From positions 1-33,272 of the forward strand of contig CALUXG010000011.1 in NCBI GenBank assembly GCA_944324685.1: a DNA stretch of 33,272 bases, given 5' to 3'. Of the stretch, positions 1,681 through 33,027 are shown one piece after another (position 1 is the first letter of the stretch; the number at the start of each line of letters is the position of its first letter). A model generated the notes under the pieces. That model was not told the origin of the DNA, did no database searches, and was given only the letters and a program-made list of their open reading frames with translations. The stretch is from an uncultured Elusimicrobiales bacterium. Its GTDB lineage: Bacteria; Elusimicrobiota; Elusimicrobia; Elusimicrobiales; Elusimicrobiaceae. A program made the position numbers and the translations under genes.

Positions 1681-2097
1681 TTATTTATCTTTTCCACAGC
1701 ACTTTTTATATTTTTTGCCGCTGCCGCAGGGGCAAGGATCATTGCGGCCGATTTTTGGCCCTTCGTGCACGACGGTTTCCACTTTTGGCAGATCGCCGGC
1801 CTGTTCGGCTTTTAATTCCGCTTCATGGGCTTTCATCCATTTTTTCATTTGGCGTATGCTTTTGAAGTCCACGCCGTCTTTTTCCATTCGTTTGGCAATG
1901 TCTATGAAACGCTGTTTGATTTGCGGGTCTTTGAGCTTGTTTTTAATCATGGCCGGCAAAGATTCTATTTCCCGCTCAATGCGTTGTTCAATGCTTTCTT
2001 TTTGTTTTTTTTCTTCGGGTTGGTGCACCGCCTCCGGCGCGGCGGCAGCGTCCGGAACGGTTTCTTCGGCGGTTTTTTTCTTAAACGGATTCCACAT
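1681..2097 (-). CDS. Small SEC-C motif protein
   Basis: This 138-residue protein ends in a SEC-C zinc-binding motif, [19 protein letters not shown] at residues 117-135, with Zn ligands C122, C124, C133 and C134. In the known family this module occurs at the C-terminus of SecA, where it binds SecB and ribosomes, and also in many small proteins of unknown role. The rest is charged and alpha-helical: a Lys/Glu-rich segment (about 28-45) and a helical stretch (46-100) with no membrane segment, so it is probably cytoplasmic. It is the last gene of a four-gene minus-strand operon, 23 nt after the second P-loop ATPase gene. A link to export or translation is suggested by the motif only. Confidence 0.85.
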
Positions 2098-2120
2098 GAC
2101 TTTACGACTCCTTGGCTAAA

Positions 2121-2687
2121 TTAGCGGAGCAAATTCTCCACGAAATTTTTAATGATTTCTGCTTTTTCAAAATAATGTTTGCTGCGAGGCACAATCAGAC
2201 GATTGGGATGGCGCTCCCAAATTTTCAGAATTTTGTCGTCAATTTCAAATGCCTGCTGCAGCGTCTCCGTGCGAACGTTGGTAGCTTGGTAATAATCTTT
2301 TTCCGGCGGAGGAGAGAGATGAATGACCGCGTCATAGCGGGCCAATTCCGCCTCCAGAGAGCTGCCCATGGCTTTGAAAAAATCTTCGGGGCCTTTTGGC
2401 CAGTATACGGCGCCGTCTATGGAGCCGCGGTCGCAAACGATGAGCGGCGCGGAAGAAGTGGCGTTGGCCAAATGCTCCAACTGGTGGACGGTATAAAAAA
2501 TGATACGCTGCGCGTGTTCTATATGAAGGGGGCTGTTGTCCTTGCGCGGGAAACCGCCGCTGTAAATCAGCGTTGCCGCTTCCTGCACCAGCTCAATTTT
2601 GCTGCCGAATGTTTCTTTCAATATGGACAGCGCGGTGGTTTTGCCGCCGCTGGGGCCTCCGGTTAAAACGATTTTCTTTTTGTTCAT
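2121..2687 (-). CDS. P-loop ATPase/kinase-like protein (second of a tandem pair)
   Basis: This 188-residue protein starts at the ATG at 2687, which overlaps the TGA of the upstream paralogue as ATGA and is preceded by a strong AGGAGGAG ribosome binding site. The frame is open further upstream but that part overlaps the neighbour in another frame. A Walker A motif, GGPSGGKTT, lies near residues 9-17. A strand ending LIVCDRGSIDGAVYWP resembles the Walker B/DRG region of NadR-type and AAA_28 P-loop proteins, which includes small-molecule kinases. It matches the upstream gene nearly throughout (for example ILKIWERHPNR), so the pair arose by tandem duplication. The substrate is unknown. Confidence 0.85.
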   Translation of the reverse strand: MNKKKIVLTGGPSGGKTTALSILKETFGSKIELVQEAATLIYSGGFPRKDNSPLHIEHAQRIIFYTVHQLEHLANATSSAPLIVCDRGSIDGAVYWPKGPEDFFKAMGSSLEAELARYDAVIHLSPPPEKDYYQATNVRTETLQQAFEIDDKILKIWERHPNRLIVPRSKHYFEKAEIIKNFVENLLR

Positions 2688-3262
2688 TTTTTCTCCTCCT
2701 GAGGAAGAAGGGTTTCTATAAAATCTTTGATGATGCCGGCTTTTTGGAAGAAATGATCCATGGAAGGCAGCACCATGCGGTTGGGATGACGCTCCCAAAT
2801 TTTCAAAATCTTCCGGTCAATGCGGGAAGCCTCCTCCAGTGTTTCCGTGCGTACACGTGTGGATTGATAAAACTCCGCTTTCAGCGGGGGCGAAAGATGA
2901 ATGACCGCGTCGTAGCGGGCTATTTGTTCTTCCAGCGTGGTTCCCATGGAGGCAAAAAAATCTTCCACTCCCTCTGGCCAATAAACGGCGGCGTCCACGG
3001 TGCCGCGGTCGCACACAATCAATTCGGCCGAAGAAGTTTGCAGGGCCAAGCTTTCCAGCTGCTGCGTAGCGTAGAAAATAATGCGCTGCGCCGTGCGGAC
3101 GTGTTCGGGACTGCCGTCTTTGCGCGGAAAGCCGCCGCTGAAAATCATGGTAGCCGCTTCCGGCACGACTTCTATTTTATTGCCGAAAGTTTCTTTCAGC
3201 ACCGACAGCGCGGTGGTTTTGCCGCCGTTTGGGCCGCCGGTAATGGCAATGCGTTTTGTCAT
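2684..3262 (-). CDS. P-loop ATPase/kinase-like protein (first of a tandem pair)
   Basis: This is a 192-residue single-domain P-loop protein. The Walker A motif GGPNGGKTT is at residues 9-17, a hydrophobic strand with VCDRGTVDAAVYW at 83-95 corresponds to the Walker B/DRG segment, and a conserved VRTETLEEA segment lies near 137-145. This pattern fits the AAA_28 (NadR-like) family, whose members include nucleoside and vitamin kinases and predicted ATPases. The ATG overlaps the stop codon of the upstream M23 peptidase (ATGA) and its own stop overlaps the next ATG, so translation of the three genes is probably coupled. The tandem paralogy suggests a heteromer or two related substrates, but nothing in the sequence decides this. 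Confidence 0.87.
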   Translation of the reverse strand: MTKRIAITGGPNGGKTTALSVLKETFGNKIEVVPEAATMIFSGGFPRKDGSPEHVRTAQRIIFYATQQLESLALQTSSAELIVCDRGTVDAAVYWPEGVEDFFASMGTTLEEQIARYDAVIHLSPPLKAEFYQSTRVRTETLEEASRIDRKILKIWERHPNRMVLPSMDHFFQKAGIIKDFIETLLPQEEKK

Positions 3263-4545
3263 TTTTCCTCCTCCTGCGCCTTGTCGGCGGGTTGGATGAC
3301 GTTGGCTTGTGCCAGCGCGTCGTTTAACGCTTTCATGTACAAATCTTTCGCTTCTGTAAAATCCGCCATTTGTTCTTTGGGTATGGAACGCAAAGCGGAA
3401 TTGCGGTTTTTCATTTTCAGAAAATCTATAAATTTATTGTTTTGCTTGATGCGGAAATCCAGATGCGGCCCCGTGGACAGCCCCGTATTGCCCACATAGG
3501 CTATGGTGTCTCCTTGTTTTACTTTGGCGCCTCTTTTTGTTTTTTTTGCATACCGGCTCAGGTGGCCGTAAGATGTAACGTAATTGTTGGCGTGGCGCAC
3601 TTCCACATAATTGCCGAATCCTCCTTTTCTGCCAACGTATGTTACAACGCCGTCTGCCACCACTTGCACCGGCGTACCAGTCGGGGCGGCATAATCAATG
3701 CCTAAATGCGGGCGGCGTATGCGCAAAATGGGGTGCATGCGGTTTGGATTAAAACGCGAAGAAATACGTACTCCCCGAAAACTGATGGGCGATTTTAGAA
3801 ACATTTTTTTGGTAATTTTGCCCGTTTTGTCAAAGAATTCGTCGTTGTAATAAAATGCGTAATTTTCTCCGGTAATTTGTCCGTCGTACATGGCTGCAAC
3901 GAGGTCTTGGCCCGTGATGGTTCCGTCTGCGGTATAATGTTCCTCCCACACGGCGGCAAAACGGTCTTTGTTTCGGGTTTCCGTATTGAAATCAATGTTC
4001 CAAGAAAAAGCGTCCGTCAAATCCACAATCAACGGAACGGTAACGTCATCTTTAAGCATGGAAGAAAAAAGAGAATCTTGTATTTGTCCGGCGGTGCTTT
4101 TAATGCGGGTATGTATTTCCACGTCGGATTGTCCGGCCGCCAGCTGCCCGCCTACGTTCGCCACAAAGTAACGCGTCAAACCTTGGTTCAAAAGCAGCAT
4201 AGCAAATTCTCCCTCCGTCGTAACGGAAATGGAGTAAGGGTCGTCTTTCTGCAATTTGCGCGTATCAATAACGGAGTTTAGCTGGTCTACAATTTCCGAC
4301 ACTTCACGGTTTTCCAGTCCCGCCTCCTGCAAGGCCACATAAATAGGCTTCTGCCCTACGGTATATTCTTGTACGGAAATTTCTTTTTGATAAGAATTTA
4401 TTTCTTCCTGACGATTTTTATCGCGCGTGATCGCCACGGTTAAAAACGTGGTCAATGCTATAACCGCAAGCGTCAGCAGATAAAACATTAAGTCATGATA
4501 ACGGCGGTAATGAGTATTAAAAAAATCAATTATTTTTTTTTGCAT
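3259..4545 (-). CDS. Membrane-anchored M23 (LytM-type) metallopeptidase
   Basis: This 428-residue protein has a single N-terminal membrane segment (about residues 19-40) and a largely polar periplasmic region. The C-terminal M23 domain (about 265-375) contains H280-x3-D284 in HLGIDYAAPTGTPV, then YGHL at 326-329 and GPHLDFRI at 359-366. M23 enzymes are Zn endopeptidases that cut peptidoglycan cross-links. The usual last motif is HxH; here it is H361-L-D363, so an Asp stands where the third Zn ligand is normally His. Activity is plausible but not certain. The gene heads a four-gene operon (two P-loop proteins, SEC-C). No Shine-Dalgarno is obvious, and the start lies just after the terminator of the upstream ptb gene. 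Confidence 0.9.
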   Translation of the reverse strand: MQKKIIDFFNTHYRRYHDLMFYLLTLAVIALTTFLTVAITRDKNRQEEINSYQKEISVQEYTVGQKPIYVALQEAGLENREVSEIVDQLNSVIDTRKLQKDDPYSISVTTEGEFAMLLLNQGLTRYFVANVGGQLAAGQSDVEIHTRIKSTAGQIQDSLFSSMLKDDVTVPLIVDLTDAFSWNIDFNTETRNKDRFAAVWEEHYTADGTITGQDLVAAMYDGQITGENYAFYYNDEFFDKTGKITKKMFLKSPISFRGVRISSRFNPNRMHPILRIRRPHLGIDYAAPTGTPVQVVADGVVTYVGRKGGFGNYVEVRHANNYVTSYGHLSRYAKKTKRGAKVKQGDTIAYVGNTGLSTGPHLDFRIKQNNKFIDFLKMKNRNSALRSIPKEQMADFTEAKDLYMKALNDALAQANVIQPADKAQEEEK

Positions 4546-4551
4546 GGCCGT

Positions 4552-4586
4552 AAAAAAGGCGGCCGGCGTTCGAATCCGGCCGCCTT
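4552..4586 (-). terminator. Rho-independent terminator after ptb
   Basis: A perfect 11-bp stem (AAGGCGGCCGG at 4556-4566, complement at 4576-4586) with a 9-nt loop is followed on the minus strand by a T run (4557-4552). It separates the lpd-trmJ-buk-ptb genes from the M23 operon, whose ATG is only 6 nt beyond; read-through could link them. Confidence 0.9.
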
Positions 4587-4594
4587 GTATGGTT

Positions 4595-5512
4595 TTATTT
4601 TTGGTCTTTCAAGAAAGAACACAGCGCAATGGCGTTTAATTTGACTTTCGGATCATCAGCGCGGGACGGCAATATGACGGGAATGGTCGGCCCCACCAGT
4701 ACGGCGGCCGCTTCCATTTTCTCTCCAAAAAACGCCAATGCTTTGTAAAGCGGGTTTCCGGCGTCCAAATCCGGCAGCATTAAAATGTCGGCGTCGCCCG
4801 CCACCTGTTTGCCCGTGATGCCTTTTTCGGCGGCTTTTTGCTCGGAGAGGGATATGTATAAGTCATACGGTCCTTCCACCACGCAGCCCGTGATTTTTCC
4901 TTCGGCGTTCATTTTGGCCAGTTCTGCCGCGTCTACGGTGCTGGGGATTTTTTCGTTTACTTTTTCCACCGGACATACGCAGGAAACTTTGGGATTTTCC
5001 AGCCCCAGCTTATGCATGGTGTTAACGGCGTTTTGAATGATTTTGGCTTTTTGTTCCAATGTCGGGGCAATGACGACGGCGCTGTCCGTTACGGCAAAAG
5101 GTTTTTTATATTTCGGCGTACTGAACAGTACAAAATGCGACAGCAAAGCTCCTTCCGGCACCAAATGCGCTTCTTTATTCAAGATGGCTTTCATATAGTA
5201 TTTGGTGTCCACCAACCCTTTGATTAAAAAGTCTCCTTTGCCCGCCAAAATTTGGTCTACCGCCAGTTTGCACATGGTGGGGACGTCTTCACAATCAATA
5301 AATTCAAATTTTTCTTCCGGCAATCCGGCCGCTTTGACCATTTCTTTTACTTGGGCTATGGGGCCAATGAGTATGCCGTGCGAAATTAGGCCGTTGTCAT
5401 CGGCCATTTTAATGGCTTGCAATGCTTCGGCATTGTTTGCGCCCGGCACGACGACGCGGTTCGATTTTCCTTTTACTTGATTAATCAAGTCTTCAAAGCT
5501 CTTAAATTTCAT
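4595..5512 (-). CDS. ptb: Phosphate butyryltransferase
   Basis: This 305-residue protein has the length and features of phosphate acetyl/butyryltransferases, including GPYDLYISLSEQKAAEKGI, GDADILMLPDLDAGNPLYK and a VGPTIPVILPSRADDP segment near the C-terminus. It interconverts butyryl-CoA (or a branched-chain acyl-CoA) plus phosphate and the acyl-phosphate plus CoA in the cytoplasm. The start is supported by AAGGAG about 8 nt upstream. The butyrate kinase gene lies 16 nt upstream on the same strand, so the pair forms the standard Ptb-Buk module giving one ATP per acyl-CoA. Presence of lpd in the same run recalls Ptb-Buk-Lpd clusters for branched-chain 2-oxo acids in Firmicutes, so isobutyryl- or isovaleryl-CoA are possible substrates. 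Confidence 0.93.
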   Translation of the reverse strand: MKFKSFEDLINQVKGKSNRVVVPGANNAEALQAIKMADDNGLISHGILIGPIAQVKEMVKAAGLPEEKFEFIDCEDVPTMCKLAVDQILAGKGDFLIKGLVDTKYYMKAILNKEAHLVPEGALLSHFVLFSTPKYKKPFAVTDSAVVIAPTLEQKAKIIQNAVNTMHKLGLENPKVSCVCPVEKVNEKIPSTVDAAELAKMNAEGKITGCVVEGPYDLYISLSEQKAAEKGITGKQVAGDADILMLPDLDAGNPLYKALAFFGEKMEAAAVLVGPTIPVILPSRADDPKVKLNAIALCSFLKDQK

Positions 5513-5528: not shown

Positions 5529-6644
5529 TTATGAATAATGTTTTACTATAGAGGGATCTTCCAATGCGCGCCGCGCCGCATCGCGCAAAGCGTCTTTTTC
5601 TTCACTGCCCGGAAATACGTAAATGGGGGCTATCCAACCCACCTGACGGCCCAGCTCATGCGGAATATATTTGCTGAACATCAGCCCGCCGGTCAGGGCG
5701 ATAAAATCCACTTTTCCTTCCAATACCACGGCCAAAGCGCCGATTTCTTTGGCCATTTGGTAAATCATGGCGTCTAAGGCTTCTTTGGCTTTTTCTTTGG
5801 TGCAATGGATAAGCGAGCCGGGGCGTTTCTTTCCCGTTTGTATATATTCTTCCAACTCTTTGACGTCGTATGTCCCCGTGTATGCGGCCAAACCGCCTTT
5901 TCCGCGCATTTTCAAGCGTATGTCTTTTTGCGTATACTTGCCCGAAAAACACATATTGACCAATCCCGCACAGGGAACGGCTCCGCTGCGTTGCGGCGTC
6001 ATGGGGCCGTCTCCTTCGTATCCGTTACTGACGTCTATCGCTTTTCCGTACCGGTGCGCTCCTATGGATATGCCGCCTCCTCCGTGGCAAATAATACAGC
6101 GCACGTCTTCGTATTTGCGGCCCTGTTTTTCAGCGATGAGGCGGGCAACGTGGCGCTGGCTTAAAGCGTGAAAAATGGAAATGCGCGGATTTTCCGGCAT
6201 GCCGCTGTAACGCGCAATAGGCTGCAGTTCGTCAATGACCACGGGATTGGCTATAAAGCTGGGGCAATTGGCGTATTTGGCAATGTCTCTGGCCAATATG
6301 CCGCCTAAATTGCTGGGATGTATGCCTCCATAGCGTCCCGTTTCCAAGTCGGACACCATTTGGTCATTGACGGCGTATACACCACCTTCCACGGAACGGA
6401 TAAAACCGCCGCGTCCGATAACGGCGTCAATTTCTTTAAGCGGTACTTTATGGTCTAAAAGATAGTCCAAGATGAGCTTGCGGCGCAGCGGCAGCTGTTC
6501 GGTAACGTTTTTGCCTTCATAGGGTTCCAAATCGGTAATGGAATAACGCACCGTAACTTCAAAAACGGGTTTTTCGCCGCGATAATAACCTATATCGTCG
6601 GAAGTGGAGCCGGGGTTAATAACCAAAATATTATAAGAAGACAT
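5529..6644 (-). CDS. buk: Butyrate kinase
   Basis: This 371-residue protein of the acetate/butyrate kinase (ASKHA) family makes ATP from butyryl-phosphate. The N-terminal phosphate-binding strand is VINPGSTSDD (residues about 7-16), followed by GRGGFI, a GGIHPSNLGG segment, ICHGGGGISIGAH and, near the C-terminus, IALTGGLMFSKYI. I chose the ATG at 6644 because the family starts with this strand. An upstream ATG at 6770 would add 42 very basic residues and overlap the end of trmJ, without family support. The ribosome site is weak (GGTGA). The gene is 109 nt downstream of trmJ and 16 nt upstream of ptb. Confidence 0.93.
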   Translation of the reverse strand: MSSYNILVINPGSTSDDIGYYRGEKPVFEVTVRYSITDLEPYEGKNVTEQLPLRRKLILDYLLDHKVPLKEIDAVIGRGGFIRSVEGGVYAVNDQMVSDLETGRYGGIHPSNLGGILARDIAKYANCPSFIANPVVIDELQPIARYSGMPENPRISIFHALSQRHVARLIAEKQGRKYEDVRCIICHGGGGISIGAHRYGKAIDVSNGYEGDGPMTPQRSGAVPCAGLVNMCFSGKYTQKDIRLKMRGKGGLAAYTGTYDVKELEEYIQTGKKRPGSLIHCTKEKAKEALDAMIYQMAKEIGALAVVLEGKVDFIALTGGLMFSKYIPHELGRQVGWIAPIYVFPGSEEKDALRDAARRALEDPSIVKHYS

Positions 6645-6753
6645 AGCTTGTTCACCGTGTGTTTGTTTATATTTTAACATTTTCCGCGCTCTTGCGCCGA
6701 CCGGACCTAATGTGCGGGTTTTTTTCTTGATTTTGGTGAGTAAATCTTTGGGG

Positions 6754-7482
6754 TCAATGTGTGCGTGCATGTTTGGCCTCCGTGAATTTGCCCCGCATAT
6801 ACAGGGCGAAATTTTTAATAAAAAACAAATCGTTTTTTCCCAACTCCGCCTTGCGTACCAGTGCGCGCAGCAAAGCCTTGCGCTGTTGGGCGGTATAGTC
6901 GGTTTTGAAACCGCTTTGAACCATTAATTCTTCTAATTCGTCAATGACCAGTTCCGTCTGTGCAAACGAAGCCCGCTGCAATGGATTTGGCTGTGCGGCA
7001 GGCGGGGTTTGCCGCGCCAGTTCATAACAAGTCAAAATAACCGATTGGGCCAAATTCACGGAAGGTTGTTTGGCGCTGGTCGGTATATGCAGTACGGCGC
7101 TGCAAAGTCCAATGTCGGCATTGGACAGACCCGTTTTTTCATTTCCAAACACAAGCGCGGTTTTGCCTTGGATTTGTTTGCTGAGCCAAAGGGGCAAATC
7201 CGGCAGTGAAATGACGGGTTGGTCCAAGCGGCGGTCTTTGAGTGCCGTGGCAGCCAGCATGAGCGTGCAGTCGGCCAGTGCCTGCGGCAAAGCGTCAAAC
7301 AGCTTTGCCCGCTGCATAATATCCTGCGCTCCCACCGCGCTGACAGCATCGCGCCAACTGGGTGCATACGGCGTTACCACGCGTAAATCCGCAAAGCCGA
7401 AATTGGCCATTGCTCTGGCGGCGGCTCCTATATTGTTCGGATCGCGCGGACTGACTAAAACGACAGCAAAACGATTCATCAT
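6754..7482 (-). CDS. trmJ: TrmH/TrmJ-family (SPOUT) RNA 2'-O-methyltransferase
   Basis: This protein of about 242 residues carries the SPOUT motifs: an N-terminal VLVSPRDPNNIGAAARAMAN, motif 2 ALVFGNEKTGLSN and motif 3 IPTSAKQPSVNLAQSV. These form the S-adenosylmethionine knot of TrmJ-like enzymes, which methylate ribose 2'-OH (position 32 of tRNA in the characterised TrmJ). A C-terminal helical extension follows, as in TrmJ. The start is ATGATG at 7482/7479 and overlaps the TGA of lpdA, so translation is likely coupled; the longer frame to 7623 is only overlap with lpdA. The exact target (tRNA or rRNA) is not determined. Confidence 0.85.
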   Translation of the reverse strand: MMNRFAVVLVSPRDPNNIGAAARAMANFGFADLRVVTPYAPSWRDAVSAVGAQDIMQRAKLFDALPQALADCTLMLAATALKDRRLDQPVISLPDLPLWLSKQIQGKTALVFGNEKTGLSNADIGLCSAVLHIPTSAKQPSVNLAQSVILTCYELARQTPPAAQPNPLQRASFAQTELVIDELEELMVQSGFKTDYTAQQRKALLRALVRKAELGKNDLFFIKNFALYMRGKFTEAKHARTH

Positions 7483-8852
7483 CGGGCCAAAGCGTCCGCT
7501 ACGGCCTCGCTGACCGTAGGGTGCGGAAATACGACGCGGCGCAGCTGCTGCACCGTGAAACCAGCTTCCAATGCTACCGTAAACAGGCTGATGATTTCTG
7601 ACGCATTGGGCGCGGCCAGACACACCCCCAGCAATTTCCCGCTTTCGGCATGGCTGACAATTTCCACAAATCCTTCCGCCGCGTCTTGCGTTAAGGCGCG
7701 TCCGTTGGCCAGCATAAAAGCTTTTTGCACTTTTACGTTCAGGCCGCGTTGCTGCGCTTGGGTGCGCGTCAATCCCACGGAGGCCAGCTCCGGCGACGTA
7801 TATACCGCGCTGGGAATCAAATCATTGTTATAGGTCATGGGTACGCCGCAAATGTTATGCGCGGCCACTTCGCCTTGGCGCGAAGCCGCATGCGCCAAAA
7901 GAGACAACCCCGTGATGTCTCCCGCCGCATAGATATGTTCTTTTACCTGCAAAGTCTGGGGGTTAATGCCTTGCAGGCCTTTTCGGGTCCACGCTAAACC
8001 GGCGTTTTCCGGATGCAGGGACGTCAAGTCGCAGCTGCGGCCTATGGCCACCAATATATCGTCGGCTTCCAGTTCCGTTCCGTCTGACAGCGTCAATATT
8101 TTGCGTTCTTTTTCCAACCGTGCGTCTACGGCTTGTTTTCCGACAAGCAGACGGACGCCTTTTTTTTGCAGGTTTTGGCTAAGCAGTCTGGCCAGACTTT
8201 CTTCCATGGTCGGCAGTAAACGCGGCTGCATTTCCACCACGCTGACGTTTACGCCCAAAGAAGACATGAGGGCCGCAAACTCACAGCCGATAACTCCTCC
8301 GCCTATGATGGCCAGTTTTTTAGGCAGGCGCGGTATTTGGAAAATATTGCTGTTGTCGTAAATATGTCCGCGTATTTTATCAAACGGTGGAGGTACGAAA
8401 GCGGTGCTGCCTGCGGCGACAATAATATAGTCAAAAACAAATTCTTTGATTTCTTCTCCCACTTGCGCATACAGCGTATGCGGATCCTTAAATGACGCTT
8501 CCGCCGCGACGACATTTATTTTGGCCTGTTTGAACAGCATGCCGATGCCGCCGGTCAATTTACGCGTAACGGCTTGCTGGCGGGCTTGGATTTTTTCCCA
8601 TGAAAGCTGTGTCAGCAGTGTTTGTGCCGTCGTTTCCGCTCCGTCTTGGCAAAAGCGGGCTATATCTCGTATGGCGTCAAAACGGTGAGCGGCGTCCAGA
8701 AGAGATTTGGAAGGAATGCAGCCGCAGTTAAGGCATACTCCTCCCAACGGACCTTTTTCAAACACGGTTACCTGCGCGCCCAAACGCGCGGCGGCCAACG
8801 CGGCCGGATAACCGGCGGGGCCTGCACCTATGACGGCTAATTTTAATGACAT
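7479..8852 (-). CDS. lpdA: Dihydrolipoyl dehydrogenase (E3)
   Basis: This 457-residue flavoprotein disulfide reductase oxidises dihydrolipoyl groups of 2-oxoacid dehydrogenase or glycine cleavage complexes, using FAD and NAD. The FAD-binding GAGPAG lies at residues 9-14, the redox pair C40/C45 in GGVCLNCGCIPSKSLL (with an extra Cys at 43), the NAD-binding GGGVIG mid-protein, an AAGDITG FAD segment, and the C-terminal HPTVSE catalytic His-Glu. The start at 8852 has GGAGG at the right distance; the longer frame to 8921 lacks family support. It leads the lpd-trmJ-buk-ptb run. No E1 or E2 gene is in the window, so its partner complex is unknown. Confidence 0.93.
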   Translation of the reverse strand: MSLKLAVIGAGPAGYPAALAAARLGAQVTVFEKGPLGGVCLNCGCIPSKSLLDAAHRFDAIRDIARFCQDGAETTAQTLLTQLSWEKIQARQQAVTRKLTGGIGMLFKQAKINVVAAEASFKDPHTLYAQVGEEIKEFVFDYIIVAAGSTAFVPPPFDKIRGHIYDNSNIFQIPRLPKKLAIIGGGVIGCEFAALMSSLGVNVSVVEMQPRLLPTMEESLARLLSQNLQKKGVRLLVGKQAVDARLEKERKILTLSDGTELEADDILVAIGRSCDLTSLHPENAGLAWTRKGLQGINPQTLQVKEHIYAAGDITGLSLLAHAASRQGEVAAHNICGVPMTYNNDLIPSAVYTSPELASVGLTRTQAQQRGLNVKVQKAFMLANGRALTQDAAEGFVEIVSHAESGKLLGVCLAAPNASEIISLFTVALEAGFTVQQLRRVVFPHPTVSEAVADALAR

Positions 8853-8920
8853 ATTGCCTCCGCAAAATAAAAAATGCCAAACTTTCTTGTATTCTAGCAT
8901 TAAAACAGCGGGAAAAAACA

Positions 8921-8932
8921 TATAATTAAATT
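8921..8932 (+). promoter_or_regulatory. -10 box for a leaderless radC transcript
   Basis: A perfect TATAAT (8921-8926) ends 6 nt before the radC ATG at 8933, and there is no Shine-Dalgarno. The transcript would start at or next to the ATG. No good -35 is visible. Confidence 0.5.
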
Positions 8933-11424: not shown

Positions 11425-11496
11425 ATGGCGAAAAAACAAACGCCGCTGAGACGTGTTTTTGAACGATTAAACGCTGTTATAGGAAGAAAAAAATGA
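11425..11496 (+). CDS. Upstream ORF of prepilin A (23 residues)
   Basis: A 23-codon frame starts at the predicted leaderless ATG (11425) and ends in a TGA that overlaps the prepilin ATG as ATGA (11493-11496). The peptide is basic, beginning MAKKQTPLRRVFERL and ending GRKK. The same frame occurs before prepilin D (32460) with only one amino-acid change in the first 22 positions. Its last codons contain AGGAAG, which can serve as the prepilin ribosome binding site. It may be a translated leader that couples or gates prepilin translation. It could instead be conserved only as DNA. Confidence 0.45.
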   Translation: MAKKQTPLRRVFERLNAVIGRKK

Positions 11497-11996
11497 AAAA
11501 AGGTTTTACATTAATTGAACTGTTGGTAGTAGTGCTGATTATCGGCATACTGACGGCCATTGCGCTGCCGCAATACGAAAAAGCCGTTAATAAAACCCGT
11601 ACCATGACACTATTGCCTTTGCTTCGTTCCATCAGTGATGCCGAGCAGCGCTATTATATGGCCAACGGAACATATACGCTGTCTTTTTCTGATTTGGATA
11701 TTGCTATGCCTGCAGGGGCGAAATTGTTCCAAGATACAAATTATGAATCGCTGGCATGGCAGAATTTCTCCTGTTTTTTGCGTGCCACTTCTGCCGATGA
11801 GCGTTCTTCCTATTCAGCCTATTGTTATTCCAAGGCGTCCGGTGTGCCGAAATTGGAAAAATATTTTGCCCGTTCTAATTTTATTTGTTGGGCTGAATCT
11901 GCGGATCAAAAAGCACTGGACATTTGCTATTCCATCAGTGGCAAAACGAAGCCGTCACTGACTACAGGTACCCAGGGAATAGGATTTTATTTTTGA
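11493..11996 (+). CDS. Type IV prepilin-like protein (cassette A)
   Basis: This 167-residue protein has a classical class III signal: MKKG before the cleavage point, then FTLIELLVVVLIIGILTAIALPQY with the conserved Glu at mature position 5. The prepilin peptidase would cut after Gly4, leaving a hydrophobic N-terminal helix and a globular domain of about 135 residues with several Cys. A shared block (DAEQRYYMANGTYTLSFSDLDI) is found in the other prepilins here. The protein may be a major or minor pilin or a pseudopilin. AGGAAG precedes the start, which overlaps the stop of the upstream ORF. A bidirectional terminator follows at 12012. Confidence 0.93.
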   Translation: MKKGFTLIELLVVVLIIGILTAIALPQYEKAVNKTRTMTLLPLLRSISDAEQRYYMANGTYTLSFSDLDIAMPAGAKLFQDTNYESLAWQNFSCFLRATSADERSSYSAYCYSKASGVPKLEKYFARSNFICWAESADQKALDICYSISGKTKPSLTTGTQGIGFYF

Positions 11997-26309: not shown

Positions 26310-26343
26310 TTGCATTGTTTTTTTTTTTTGATAAATTTTGCGT
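26310..26343 (+). promoter_or_regulatory. Prepilin C promoter with a 12-T spacer tract
   Basis: Candidate -35 TTGCAT (26310-26315), a 16-nt spacer containing 12 uninterrupted T (26318-26329), and -10-like TAAATT (26332-26337). The ATG at 26344 is 6 nt after the -10, so the transcript is predicted to be leaderless. Confidence 0.55.
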
Positions 26344-26365
26344 ATGAACAAAATTTATCAAAAAA
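26324..26365. repeat. 17-bp inverted repeat around the prepilin C start codon
   Basis: The arms 26324-26340 and 26349-26365 (core GATAAATTTTG / CAAAATTTATC, flanked by T6/A6) are perfectly complementary. The 8-nt centre CGTATGAA contains the start codon. The left arm covers the -10 box. The same repeat occurs in cassette E. Confidence 0.85.
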
Positions 26366-27102
26366 TGTATCTGAAGGGAAAAAAGAAGTCTAAAGGCGTT
26401 TTAGGCGGCTTTATTGATAACGTCATTCTGAGAGGTTTTTACTCAGGATCGCGACCTTTTGGGAATCTAAAGTGGTTGGGATGCCGAGTAAAAGCGTCTC
26501 GGCATGACGCTAATATAAATAACGAGAATATAAATGATGACACTATAAATAACGTCATTCTGAGAGGTTTTTACTCAGAATCTCGACCTTTTTCTATCAA
26601 ACGGGCCGGCTTTACGCTGATTGAACTCTTGGTCGTGGTGCTGATTATCGGTATATTGGCGGCCATTGCCCTGCCGCAATATCAGGTGGCGGTATTAAAA
26701 AGCCGGTTTATGAGTTTTATGCCCACCGTGCGCGCTCTGATAAACGCGCAGGAAGTCTATTATATGGCTAACGGCAGATATGCTTATAATCTAAGTCAGC
26801 TGGATGTACAAATTCCGGAGGATTGCCGCGCGCGTTCTAATACCAGTGCTCCCAATGAAATTTTATGCGGGACGGACTGGTTGCTGGATAATGTTTCCTT
26901 AAGAATGGAACCGTTAGGGGTGATGAGTGTTAGTTATTGCCCGGGGAATAATACAAACGGCAGCACTTCTTGTGAACCTGTGTTGGAAGTGAAGCTGACC
27001 TTTTATTATTCTCAGCATGCGGAAAAACCCGATCAGGTCTCTTGCAGCGCAAAAACAAAAAAGGGAACCTTGCTCTGCCATACATTGAAGGGAATTTTTT
27101 AA
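26344..27102 (+). CDS. Type IV prepilin-like protein with an 89-residue N-terminal extension (cassette C)
   Basis: This 252-residue frame has a normal prepilin core, KRAG before the cleavage point, then FTLIELLVVVLIIGILAAIALPQY from residue 90, and a Cys-containing globular domain (YYMANGRYAYNLSQLDV). Before it lie 89 residues instead of the usual 5-30. These begin MNKIYQKMYLKGKKK, then hold two copies of NVILRGFYS(G/E)SRPF 132 nt apart and an Asn-rich stretch of three 5-residue units. The frame is open throughout and no ATG, GTG or TTG lies close to the KRAGF site, so translation from 26344 is the simplest reading. It could also be a cassette disabled by repeat insertion. The stop overlaps that of convergent holA. 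Confidence 0.75.
   Translation: MNKIYQKMYLKGKKKSKGVLGGFIDNVILRGFYSGSRPFGNLKWLGCRVKASRHDANINNENINDDTINNVILRGFYSESRPFSIKRAGFTLIELLVVVLIIGILAAIALPQYQVAVLKSRFMSFMPTVRALINAQEVYYMANGRYAYNLSQLDVQIPEDCRARSNTSAPNEILCGTDWLLDNVSLRMEPLGVMSVSYCPGNNTNGSTSCEPVLEVKLTFYYSQHAEKPDQVSCSAKTKKGTLLCHTLKGIF
26419..26592. repeat. In-frame palindromic repeat cluster inside the prepilin C leader
   Basis: Two 42-bp copies (26419-26460 and 26551-26592) differ at two positions. Each contains ATTCTGAG pairing with CTCAG(G/A)AT across a 9-nt loop. Between them, ATGCCGAG/CTCGGCAT (26481-26505) forms a third palindrome, also with 8-bp arms and a 9-nt loop. A 15-nt tandem repeat of three units (26509-26553) precedes the second copy. 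All units keep the prepilin frame open. Confidence 0.85.
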
Positions 27103-32459: not shown

Positions 32460-32595
32460 ATGGCGGAAAAACAAACGCCGCTGAGACGTGTTTTTGAACG
32501 ATTAAACGCTGTTATAGGAAGAAAAAATGAGAAAAGGTTTTACATTAATTGAACTGTTGGTAGTAGTGTTGATTGTCGGTATATTGGCGGCCATA
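32437..32595 (+). repeat. Cassette D leader and prepilin N-terminus, direct repeat of 11402-11562
   Basis: From the T tract to the start codon the two cassettes differ at only two bases and a one-base A indel. Similarity then continues through the hydrophobic N-terminal helix, and falls off in the globular domain. Confidence 0.85.
32460..32552 (+). CDS. Upstream ORF of prepilin D (30 residues, frame-shifted end)
   Basis: It begins MAEKQTPLRRVFERL, as in cassette A. The A run before the prepilin start is one base shorter, so the frame does not stop at the prepilin ATG but continues 26 nt inside the prepilin gene, ending at TGA 32552. It would still overlap and could affect prepilin initiation. 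The AGGAAG site is retained. Confidence 0.4.
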   Translation: MAEKQTPLRRVFERLNAVIGRKNEKRFYIN

Positions 32596-33027
32596 GCGTT
32601 GCCGCAATATCAAACGGCGGTGGCGGCAAGTAAGATGATGCGTTTTATACCTGCTGCCCGAGCCATTAAAGACGCGCAGGAGCGGTATTATATGGCCAAC
32701 GGAGACTATGTGTTGGATTTGGGGAATTTGGACATATCCCTTCCGGCGGGCTGTCGGTTCTATGGGGGTACTTCCATTAAAAACCAAGTATTGTGCGGAG
32801 AGGATTGGGTAATGGATAACGTGGAGGTAAACCAGCGTTCGCAGCGGAAGCTCGCGCTGTATTATTGCCCGGGGAAAAACAGCCTCGGCACGGCTTCTTG
32901 CAATAACAACAGCGCTATAGGAAGAATTACTTTTTTCTATGACCAGCATGCCCGCTACCCGGGAAAAATAGACTGCACTTCCCCGTCAAAGCGATTTTGT
33001 TCGGCCCTGCAAAGTGTTTTGAAATAA
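32527..33027 (+). CDS. Type IV prepilin-like protein (cassette D)
   Basis: This 166-residue protein has the class III leader MRKG and then FTLIELLVVVLIVGILAAIALPQY with Glu at mature position 5. The globular domain carries an AIKDAQERYYMANGDYVLDL block, a GTSIKNQVLCGEDWVMDNV segment like that of prepilin C, and four to six Cys that could form disulfides near the C-terminus. Prepilins A, C and D share the N-terminal helix closely but diverge in the exposed domain. AGGAAG precedes the start. A terminator follows at 33045. Confidence 0.93.
   Translation: MRKGFTLIELLVVVLIVGILAAIALPQYQTAVAASKMMRFIPAARAIKDAQERYYMANGDYVLDLGNLDISLPAGCRFYGGTSIKNQVLCGEDWVMDNVEVNQRSQRKLALYYCPGKNSLGTASCNNNSAIGRITFFYDQHARYPGKIDCTSPSKRFCSALQSVLK

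Follow-up and report, generated by a model that had tools for sequence, protein, structure and literature searches.

A tandem pair of AAA_28 P-loop genes overlapping an M23 peptidase gene in gut Elusimicrobiota

Introduction

Why should a cell-wall peptidase be encoded in the same run of overlapping genes as two kinase-like P-loop proteins? The question is raised by a 33,272-nucleotide stretch of DNA (hereafter the window) from an Avelusimicrobium-type gut member of the Elusimicrobiota. The initial annotation of this stretch saw two paralogous NadR/AAA_28-like genes joined to an M23 peptidase gene, called the combination unfamiliar, and proposed that the pair could be a heterodimeric kinase or a control module for the peptidase. 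Here we compare the gene run with its counterparts in the same genus, in other genera of the same family, in the second family of its order (hereafter the sister family), and beyond. The gene cluster is real and conserved, its components are ordinary, and a duplicated nucleoside-type kinase is the best reading of the P-loop pair.

Results

The gene run lies on the minus strand of the window. It includes buk, an acyl kinase gene of the Acetate_kinase family whose longest open reading frame spans 5529-6770; its true start is probably near 6644, because homologues align only from residue 39-47 on. Downstream of buk come ptb (4595-5512), a phosphate acyltransferase gene of the PTA_PTB family, and a gene for a 428-residue M23 peptidase with a Csd3_N2 domain and one N-terminal hydrophobic segment (3259-4545). 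These are followed by two AAA_28 (NadR/TTD14-type) P-loop genes, P1 (2684-3262, 192 residues) and P2 (2121-2687, 188 residues), and by a gene for a 138-residue protein with a C-terminal SEC-C motif (1681-2097; Pfam SEC-C, E 9.8e-11). The M23 stop and the P1 start share an ATGA at 3259-3262, the P1 stop and the P2 start share another at 2684-2687, both on the minus strand, and the SEC-C gene starts 23 nucleotides after the P2 stop; both junctions and the downstream SEC-C gene had been recognized in the initial annotation and are confirmed here. A search of the genome returned two AAA_28 copies of the P1/P2 type and no third.

Other features of the window were noted in passing. On the same strand, upstream of buk and ptb, lies a gene (7479-8921) that we take to be dihydrolipoamide-dehydrogenase-like and that, together with buk and ptb, would presumably fit the breakdown of keto acids to acyl phosphates. 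At 3-1427, open at the window edge, a protein of 474 residues or more is rich in cysteine and has many CC and GxCCP repeats, and three separate proteins (11493-11996, 26338-27102 and 32527-33027) have the prepilin-like start FTLIELLVVVLIIGILxAIALPQY.

Both P-loop proteins match Pfam AAA_28 (PF13521) far above the cut-off of 27 (P1, E 1e-25, 91.3 bits; P2, E 2.5e-26, 93.3 bits), and the only other match is to AAA_18, below threshold. Aligned over 184 residues, the two show 68% identity (E 6e-102), which rules out chance similarity and therefore indicates a duplication, so that the tandem paralogy proposed at first is upheld. Among 49 AAA_28 sequences, 37 columns are invariant, including the P-loop TGGPxxGKTTA (with Walker A positions G10, G11, P12, G15, K16 and T17), DRGxxD, RxE, W157, H160 and K175. 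The signature residues checked, the Walker A lysine and threonine among them, are the same in 57/57 P1 and 54/54 P2 proteins, and the possibility that one copy is a degenerate relic is thereby ruled out. P1 is the faster-evolving copy and P2 the slower: the mean distance in 32 genomes is 0.258 for P1 versus 0.154 for P2, and the P1 distance is the larger of the two in 458 of the 496 pairs of genomes, the median ratio being 1.66. Six differences between the two are fixed, of which four are changes in P1, one is a change in P2 and one is not attributable; among the six are position 12, in the P-loop, and position 91, next to the conserved D90. Because the signature residues are intact and the few fixed differences touch the P-loop and the vicinity of D90, two working enzymes of different specificity would fit better than a relic. 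A phage or defence origin was also rejected, since PADLOC gave no match for P1, P2 or M23 and only SEC-C-motif-type matches for the SEC-C protein. AAA_28 proteins of the P1/P2 type are present in several bacterial phyla, and a literature search found no functional paper on a bacterial one.

The structure model of P2 (pLDDT 88.6, pTM 0.85) has a predicted nucleoside-kinase fold. Its best structural match is NadR (8x7f; Z 18.3, rmsd 2.5 over 175 residues), and the next are NadR and dCK (both Z 16.7) and thymidylate kinase (Z 16.4). The top Foldseek matches are dCK (E 3.3e-7) and thymidylate kinase, ranging from E 3e-7 to 2e-6, and NadR is not among the best 50 Foldseek matches listed; models of phage thymidylate kinases (phrog_2107) were matched at E 1.3e-6 and 1.1e-4. 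Searches of the PDB by sequence gave no usable relative, either with P1 alone (best E 0.0081, a designed protein) or with an AAA_28 profile (best E 0.048, a thymidylate kinase), and neither P1 nor P2 matches the deoxynucleoside kinase (dNK, PF01712) or thymidylate kinase Pfam models at E 0.1. The AAA_28 match and the P2 model support a predicted NadR-like P-loop kinase fold, in agreement with the kinase-like nature first assigned to the pair.

A shared fold raises the possibility that P1 and P2 are nicotinamide riboside kinases, as in NadR. The NadR kinase domain is the best structural match, and the Pfam family, which we take to include NadR by name, is shared. However, these proteins of 188-192 residues carry neither the adenylyltransferase nor the DNA-binding part of NadR, their profile meets E. 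coli NadR only weakly (probability 52.7), and NadR is without DRGxxD at the corresponding place. The transporter PnuC (PF04973) was also not matched in the window's genome, and it was matched in only 8 genomes of the window's genus, a genus that had at least 66 genomes in another draw of equal size. We therefore disfavour a nicotinamide riboside kinase and consider it very improbable.

P1 and P2 could also be GTP-binding switches rather than kinases, with the pair acting as a nucleotide-controlled dimer. The precedent is TTD14 of Drosophila, which is reported to bind GTP and not ATP and which loses GTP binding when its Walker A proline is changed; kinase activity is not among the properties described in the accessible part of that paper (PMC4624897). 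Since TTD14 is reported to bind GTP and not ATP, a binding switch is possible for P1 and P2, which have the Walker A sequence GGPxxGKT with the conserved proline and the hhhhDxG motif, as in the part of TTD14 described there. On the other hand, the conserved lid-type RxE, the DRGxxD and the kinase fold suggest catalysis on a second substrate, and the CYTH domain of TTD14 is absent from P1 and P2 (no Pfam match, and the chain is too short). We regard such a switch as rather unlikely.

A contig search with P1 kept 77 loci, 57 of which (L032-L088) carry P1-type genes with 63-96% identity. Their records are named Elusimicrobiota, Elusimicrobiales, Elusimicrobium, Avelusimicrobium or uncultured bacterium; we infer from the P1/P2 pair that all 57 belong to one genus, and some of them are the same organisms as in the genome set. 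As far as the contigs reach, the order ptb-M23-P1-P2-SEC-C is kept in all 57 loci, and the four-gene order around the pair is thus stable among relatives. ptb and M23 lie upstream in 57/57, both P-loop copies are present in 56/57 and SEC-C in 52/57, and a contig edge explains the five loci without SEC-C and the one without P2. The M23 and P1 genes overlap in 55 of the 57 loci (by 4 nucleotides in 30 and by 8-14 in 25) and are 2 nucleotides apart in the other two, which bears out the translational coupling to M23 that had been proposed. The P1-P2 junction, available in 56 loci, is a 4-nucleotide overlap in 17, a 1-nucleotide overlap in 2 and a gap of 2-8 nucleotides in 37. The overlap of M23 and P1 is general in related loci, but the ATGA junction of P1 and P2 is not. 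In whole genomes of the window's genus, AAA_28 was matched in 62 of 66, with at least two copies in 61 of these 62. Completeness is 66-83% in the four genomes that gave no match, three of which have a contig that breaks off inside M23.

In 21 related loci (L051, L052, L054-L059, L062, L065-L069, L072, L075, L076, L078, L080, L083 and L086), P1 and P2 share one reading frame and are separated by a single stop (TAA or TAG) and one codon. A model of the P1-stop-P2 read-through chain (19 loci), built with a short linker and a thin alignment and with neither an interface score nor a control, reached pTM 0.82 and mean pLDDT 80.7 (80.7 to 56.9 among the five models). Such a pTM for two domains suggests that they have a preferred arrangement. 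It points weakly to a possible P1-P2 heterodimer.

A difference between the two families of the order bears on what the pair might do. dNK was found in 24 of the 24 sampled genomes of the sister family but in only two (G035 and G105) of 90 in the window's family, and a PF01712 search of the window's genome gave no match. As dNK is missing from 88 of the 90 family genomes, P1 and P2 might replace it as a salvage kinase made of two tandem copies, which may pair as a heterodimer and divide the specificity between them. The closeness of the P2 fold to dCK and the pTM of the read-through chain agree with such a role, and tandem kinases have precedents. In Lactobacillus acidophilus, the adjacent dAK and dGK genes encode tandem deoxynucleoside kinases that form a heterodimer. 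The Trypanosoma thymidine kinase is a tandem protein, to go by a title cited in PMC11662666. Against replacement, AAA_28 and dNK occur together in all seven genomes checked of the 12 sister-family genomes with AAA_28, and P1 and P2 do not match the dNK profile. Furthermore, the window's genome has both a thymidylate kinase and a thymidine kinase (the latter over cut-off in 84 of the 90 family genomes), and the loss of dNK is one event at most, in small gut genomes that have lost much. Because AAA_28 and dNK co-occur in the sister family and the loss may have been a single event, it is a lead rather than a test, and we consider replacement of dNK unlikely. The related idea that P1 and P2 fill in for a missing thymidylate kinase was ruled out, since the window's genome contains PF02223, which was matched in 59 of 61 genomes.

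Outside the genus, AAA_28 is a single gene. Among 24 genomes from other genera of the window's family, 19 have a match, one copy each, and the order ptb-M23-AAA_28-SEC-C is found in all 15 loci fetched (from 15 of these 19 genomes). In the sister family, 12 genomes have one AAA_28 copy. M23 is absent from all 12 of these loci, and in 11 the P-loop gene directly follows ptb, with SEC-C downstream; the ptb/P-loop junction in these 11 is a 4-nucleotide overlap in 4, abutting in 3 and a spacing of 4-145 nucleotides in 4. Free variation of the neighbours, which the initial annotation had named as evidence against a meaningful grouping, is therefore not seen within the window's family, but the sister family does without M23. 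ptb and SEC-C lie on the same strand at most 1.2 kb apart in 22 of 24 sister-family genomes, with AAA_28 between them in 6. The twelfth AAA_28 locus (L111) has AAA_28-SEC-C without ptb. At this locus (1988-4616, genome G045, which has no ptb match), the two genes come after hydroxyacyl-CoA dehydrogenase- and thiolase-like genes (named by eye), and the AAA_28 frame contains one TAG.

Farther away, the associations disappear. In other families of the class, none of SEC-C, AAA_28 and M23 accompanies ptb within the stretches retrieved for 12 loci from 10 genomes. Outside the phylum, ptb, M23 and SEC-C gave no match at E 0.01 within the retrieved stretches of 20/20 AAA_28 loci (L089-L108), and AAA_28 has no constant partner among the neighbours listed for them. 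In four Colwelliaceae loci (L093, L096, L101 and L105), the related gene comes after a molybdenum-oxidoreductase-like gene, which in some is itself preceded by an FdhD-like gene (named by eye).

The M23 protein is, to judge by its sequence, an envelope endopeptidase (Peptidase_M23, E 7.1e-31, 106.7 bits; Csd3_N2, E 5e-15, 56 bits), with NCBIfam scores under the cut-offs for ShyC (189 vs 700 bits) and MepM (159 vs 341 bits). About 20 residues precede its one hydrophobic segment at around residue 21, and the enzyme domain follows. Since P1 and P2 have no hydrophobic segment (nor does the SEC-C protein), the pair and M23 probably lie on opposite sides of the membrane. The last zinc-site motif in M23 enzymes is usually HxH, of the GPHLHF type. 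It was observed as GPHLDF in 57/57 loci of the same genus, 15/15 from other genera of the family and 8/9 from the sister family (L032-L088, L124-L132, L138-L143, L145-L149 and L151-L153; the pattern has no match in the sister-family locus L150).

Do P1 and P2 then control the peptidase, by phosphorylating or binding M23 or its cytosolic tail? The persistent overlap of the M23 stop with the P1 start and the presence of M23 in the run in every sampled genus of the family would be expected of such a module. Yet the P-loop gene occurs without M23 in all 12 sister-family loci fetched and in all 20 stretches retrieved from outside the phylum, the best M23 matches of the sister family lie elsewhere in the genome and never beside ptb, the stretch of M23 before the hydrophobic segment is short, and the predicted fold of P1 and P2 is that of small-molecule kinases. 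As the P-loop gene of the sister family manages without M23, and ptb outside the order manages without any of these neighbours, the control module suggested at first is not supported, and we hold it to be highly improbable. The neighbours of M23 also differ among nine sister-family loci, and because M23 is variable in its neighbours and not beside ptb there, its coupling to P1 is most likely a matter of joint expression. The overlap is nonetheless kept so widely that a selected ratio or timing is suggested, and this retention is the best argument left for a functional tie.

In a quick tree of 98 AAA_28 rows, made without bootstrap, the 31 P1 rows form a single group (SH-aLRT 95), and so do the 31 P2 rows (SH-aLRT 91). 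The rows of the two do not mix, and the tree thus indicates one duplication before the sampled radiation and gives no hint of gene conversion. The family's single copies are not united in one group. Those of G104 and G105 (L126 and L127) fall away from the others, so that the insertion history appears blurred by transfer or loss, and the single copy at L132 has a very long branch.

Discussion

The gene orders reveal a run that grew in layers. ptb is the oldest neighbour, common to the sister family and beyond, and since it stands alone in the 12 outgroup loci, the additions came in the order SEC-C, AAA_28, M23 and second AAA_28 copy. By parsimony on gene order, rather than by a reconciled tree, SEC-C became a neighbour of ptb within the taxonomic order, AAA_28 was added or retained in part of that order, M23 entered between ptb and AAA_28 in the window's family, and the duplication followed later, in the window's genus only. 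The combination was rightly called unfamiliar, but it is specific to one lineage. Growth in such steps makes the run a clean example in which shared expression can be told apart from shared function.

We give somewhat better than even chances to the explanation that P1 and P2 are cytosolic AAA_28 nucleoside-type kinases which arose by one duplication and are co-expressed with M23 without controlling it. Its observed part consists of the duplication, the place in the tree, the gene orders, the intact signature residues and the predicted fold. A single AAA_28 gene, already part of a ptb-SEC-C run into which M23 was inserted ahead of it in the window's family, would have given rise to P1 and P2. 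Both would phosphorylate a small nucleoside-like molecule, and they may have drifted apart in substrate or pairing, with P1 as the altered copy. M23 would be coupled to them for expression, through overlapping genes on one message, and not as their target; it is probably their synthesis, and not their function, that the P-loop pair and M23 share. What speaks against this explanation is that coupling to M23 is near-universal in the window's genus, a regularity not required of a pure passenger. The single-copy homologue of a cultured relative would offer direct access to the substrate.

A bolder conjecture, and a long shot, is that AAA_28 in gut Elusimicrobiota took over deoxynucleoside salvage after the loss of dNK and, in Avelusimicrobium, split into a tandem, obligately heterodimeric kinase that shares its message with a cell-wall endopeptidase. 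If this were true, a salvage kinase of the AAA_28 family on a shared message would tie the supply of DNA precursors to wall growth.

Among known systems, the NadR kinase domain (PDB 8x7f and 6gye) has the same P-loop kinase fold as the P2 model over the whole chain; P1 and P2 differ from NadR in being stand-alone domains and in having DRGxxD in place of the NadR segment. Human dCK and thymidylate kinases also resemble P2 in fold (Z 16-16.7), but their sequences are only 14-18% identical. The M23 protein has the same Csd3_N2 plus Peptidase_M23 layout as the endopeptidases MepM, ShyA and ShyC, from which it is set apart by GPHLDF and by scores below the ShyC and MepM model cut-offs. Like P1 and P2, the dAK and dGK genes of L. 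acidophilus are adjacent paralogues with a nucleoside-kinase fold, but they belong to a different sequence family, and their products are a heterodimer, whereas a heterodimer of P1 and P2 is a possibility to which the read-through model points weakly. TTD14, which combines an AAA_28-type P-loop domain with a CYTH domain, has in common with P1 and P2 the proline-containing Walker A and the hhhhDxG motif, as far as the available part of its description goes (PMC4624897); P1 and P2, by contrast, are bacterial, are without CYTH and form a tandem pair in an operon.
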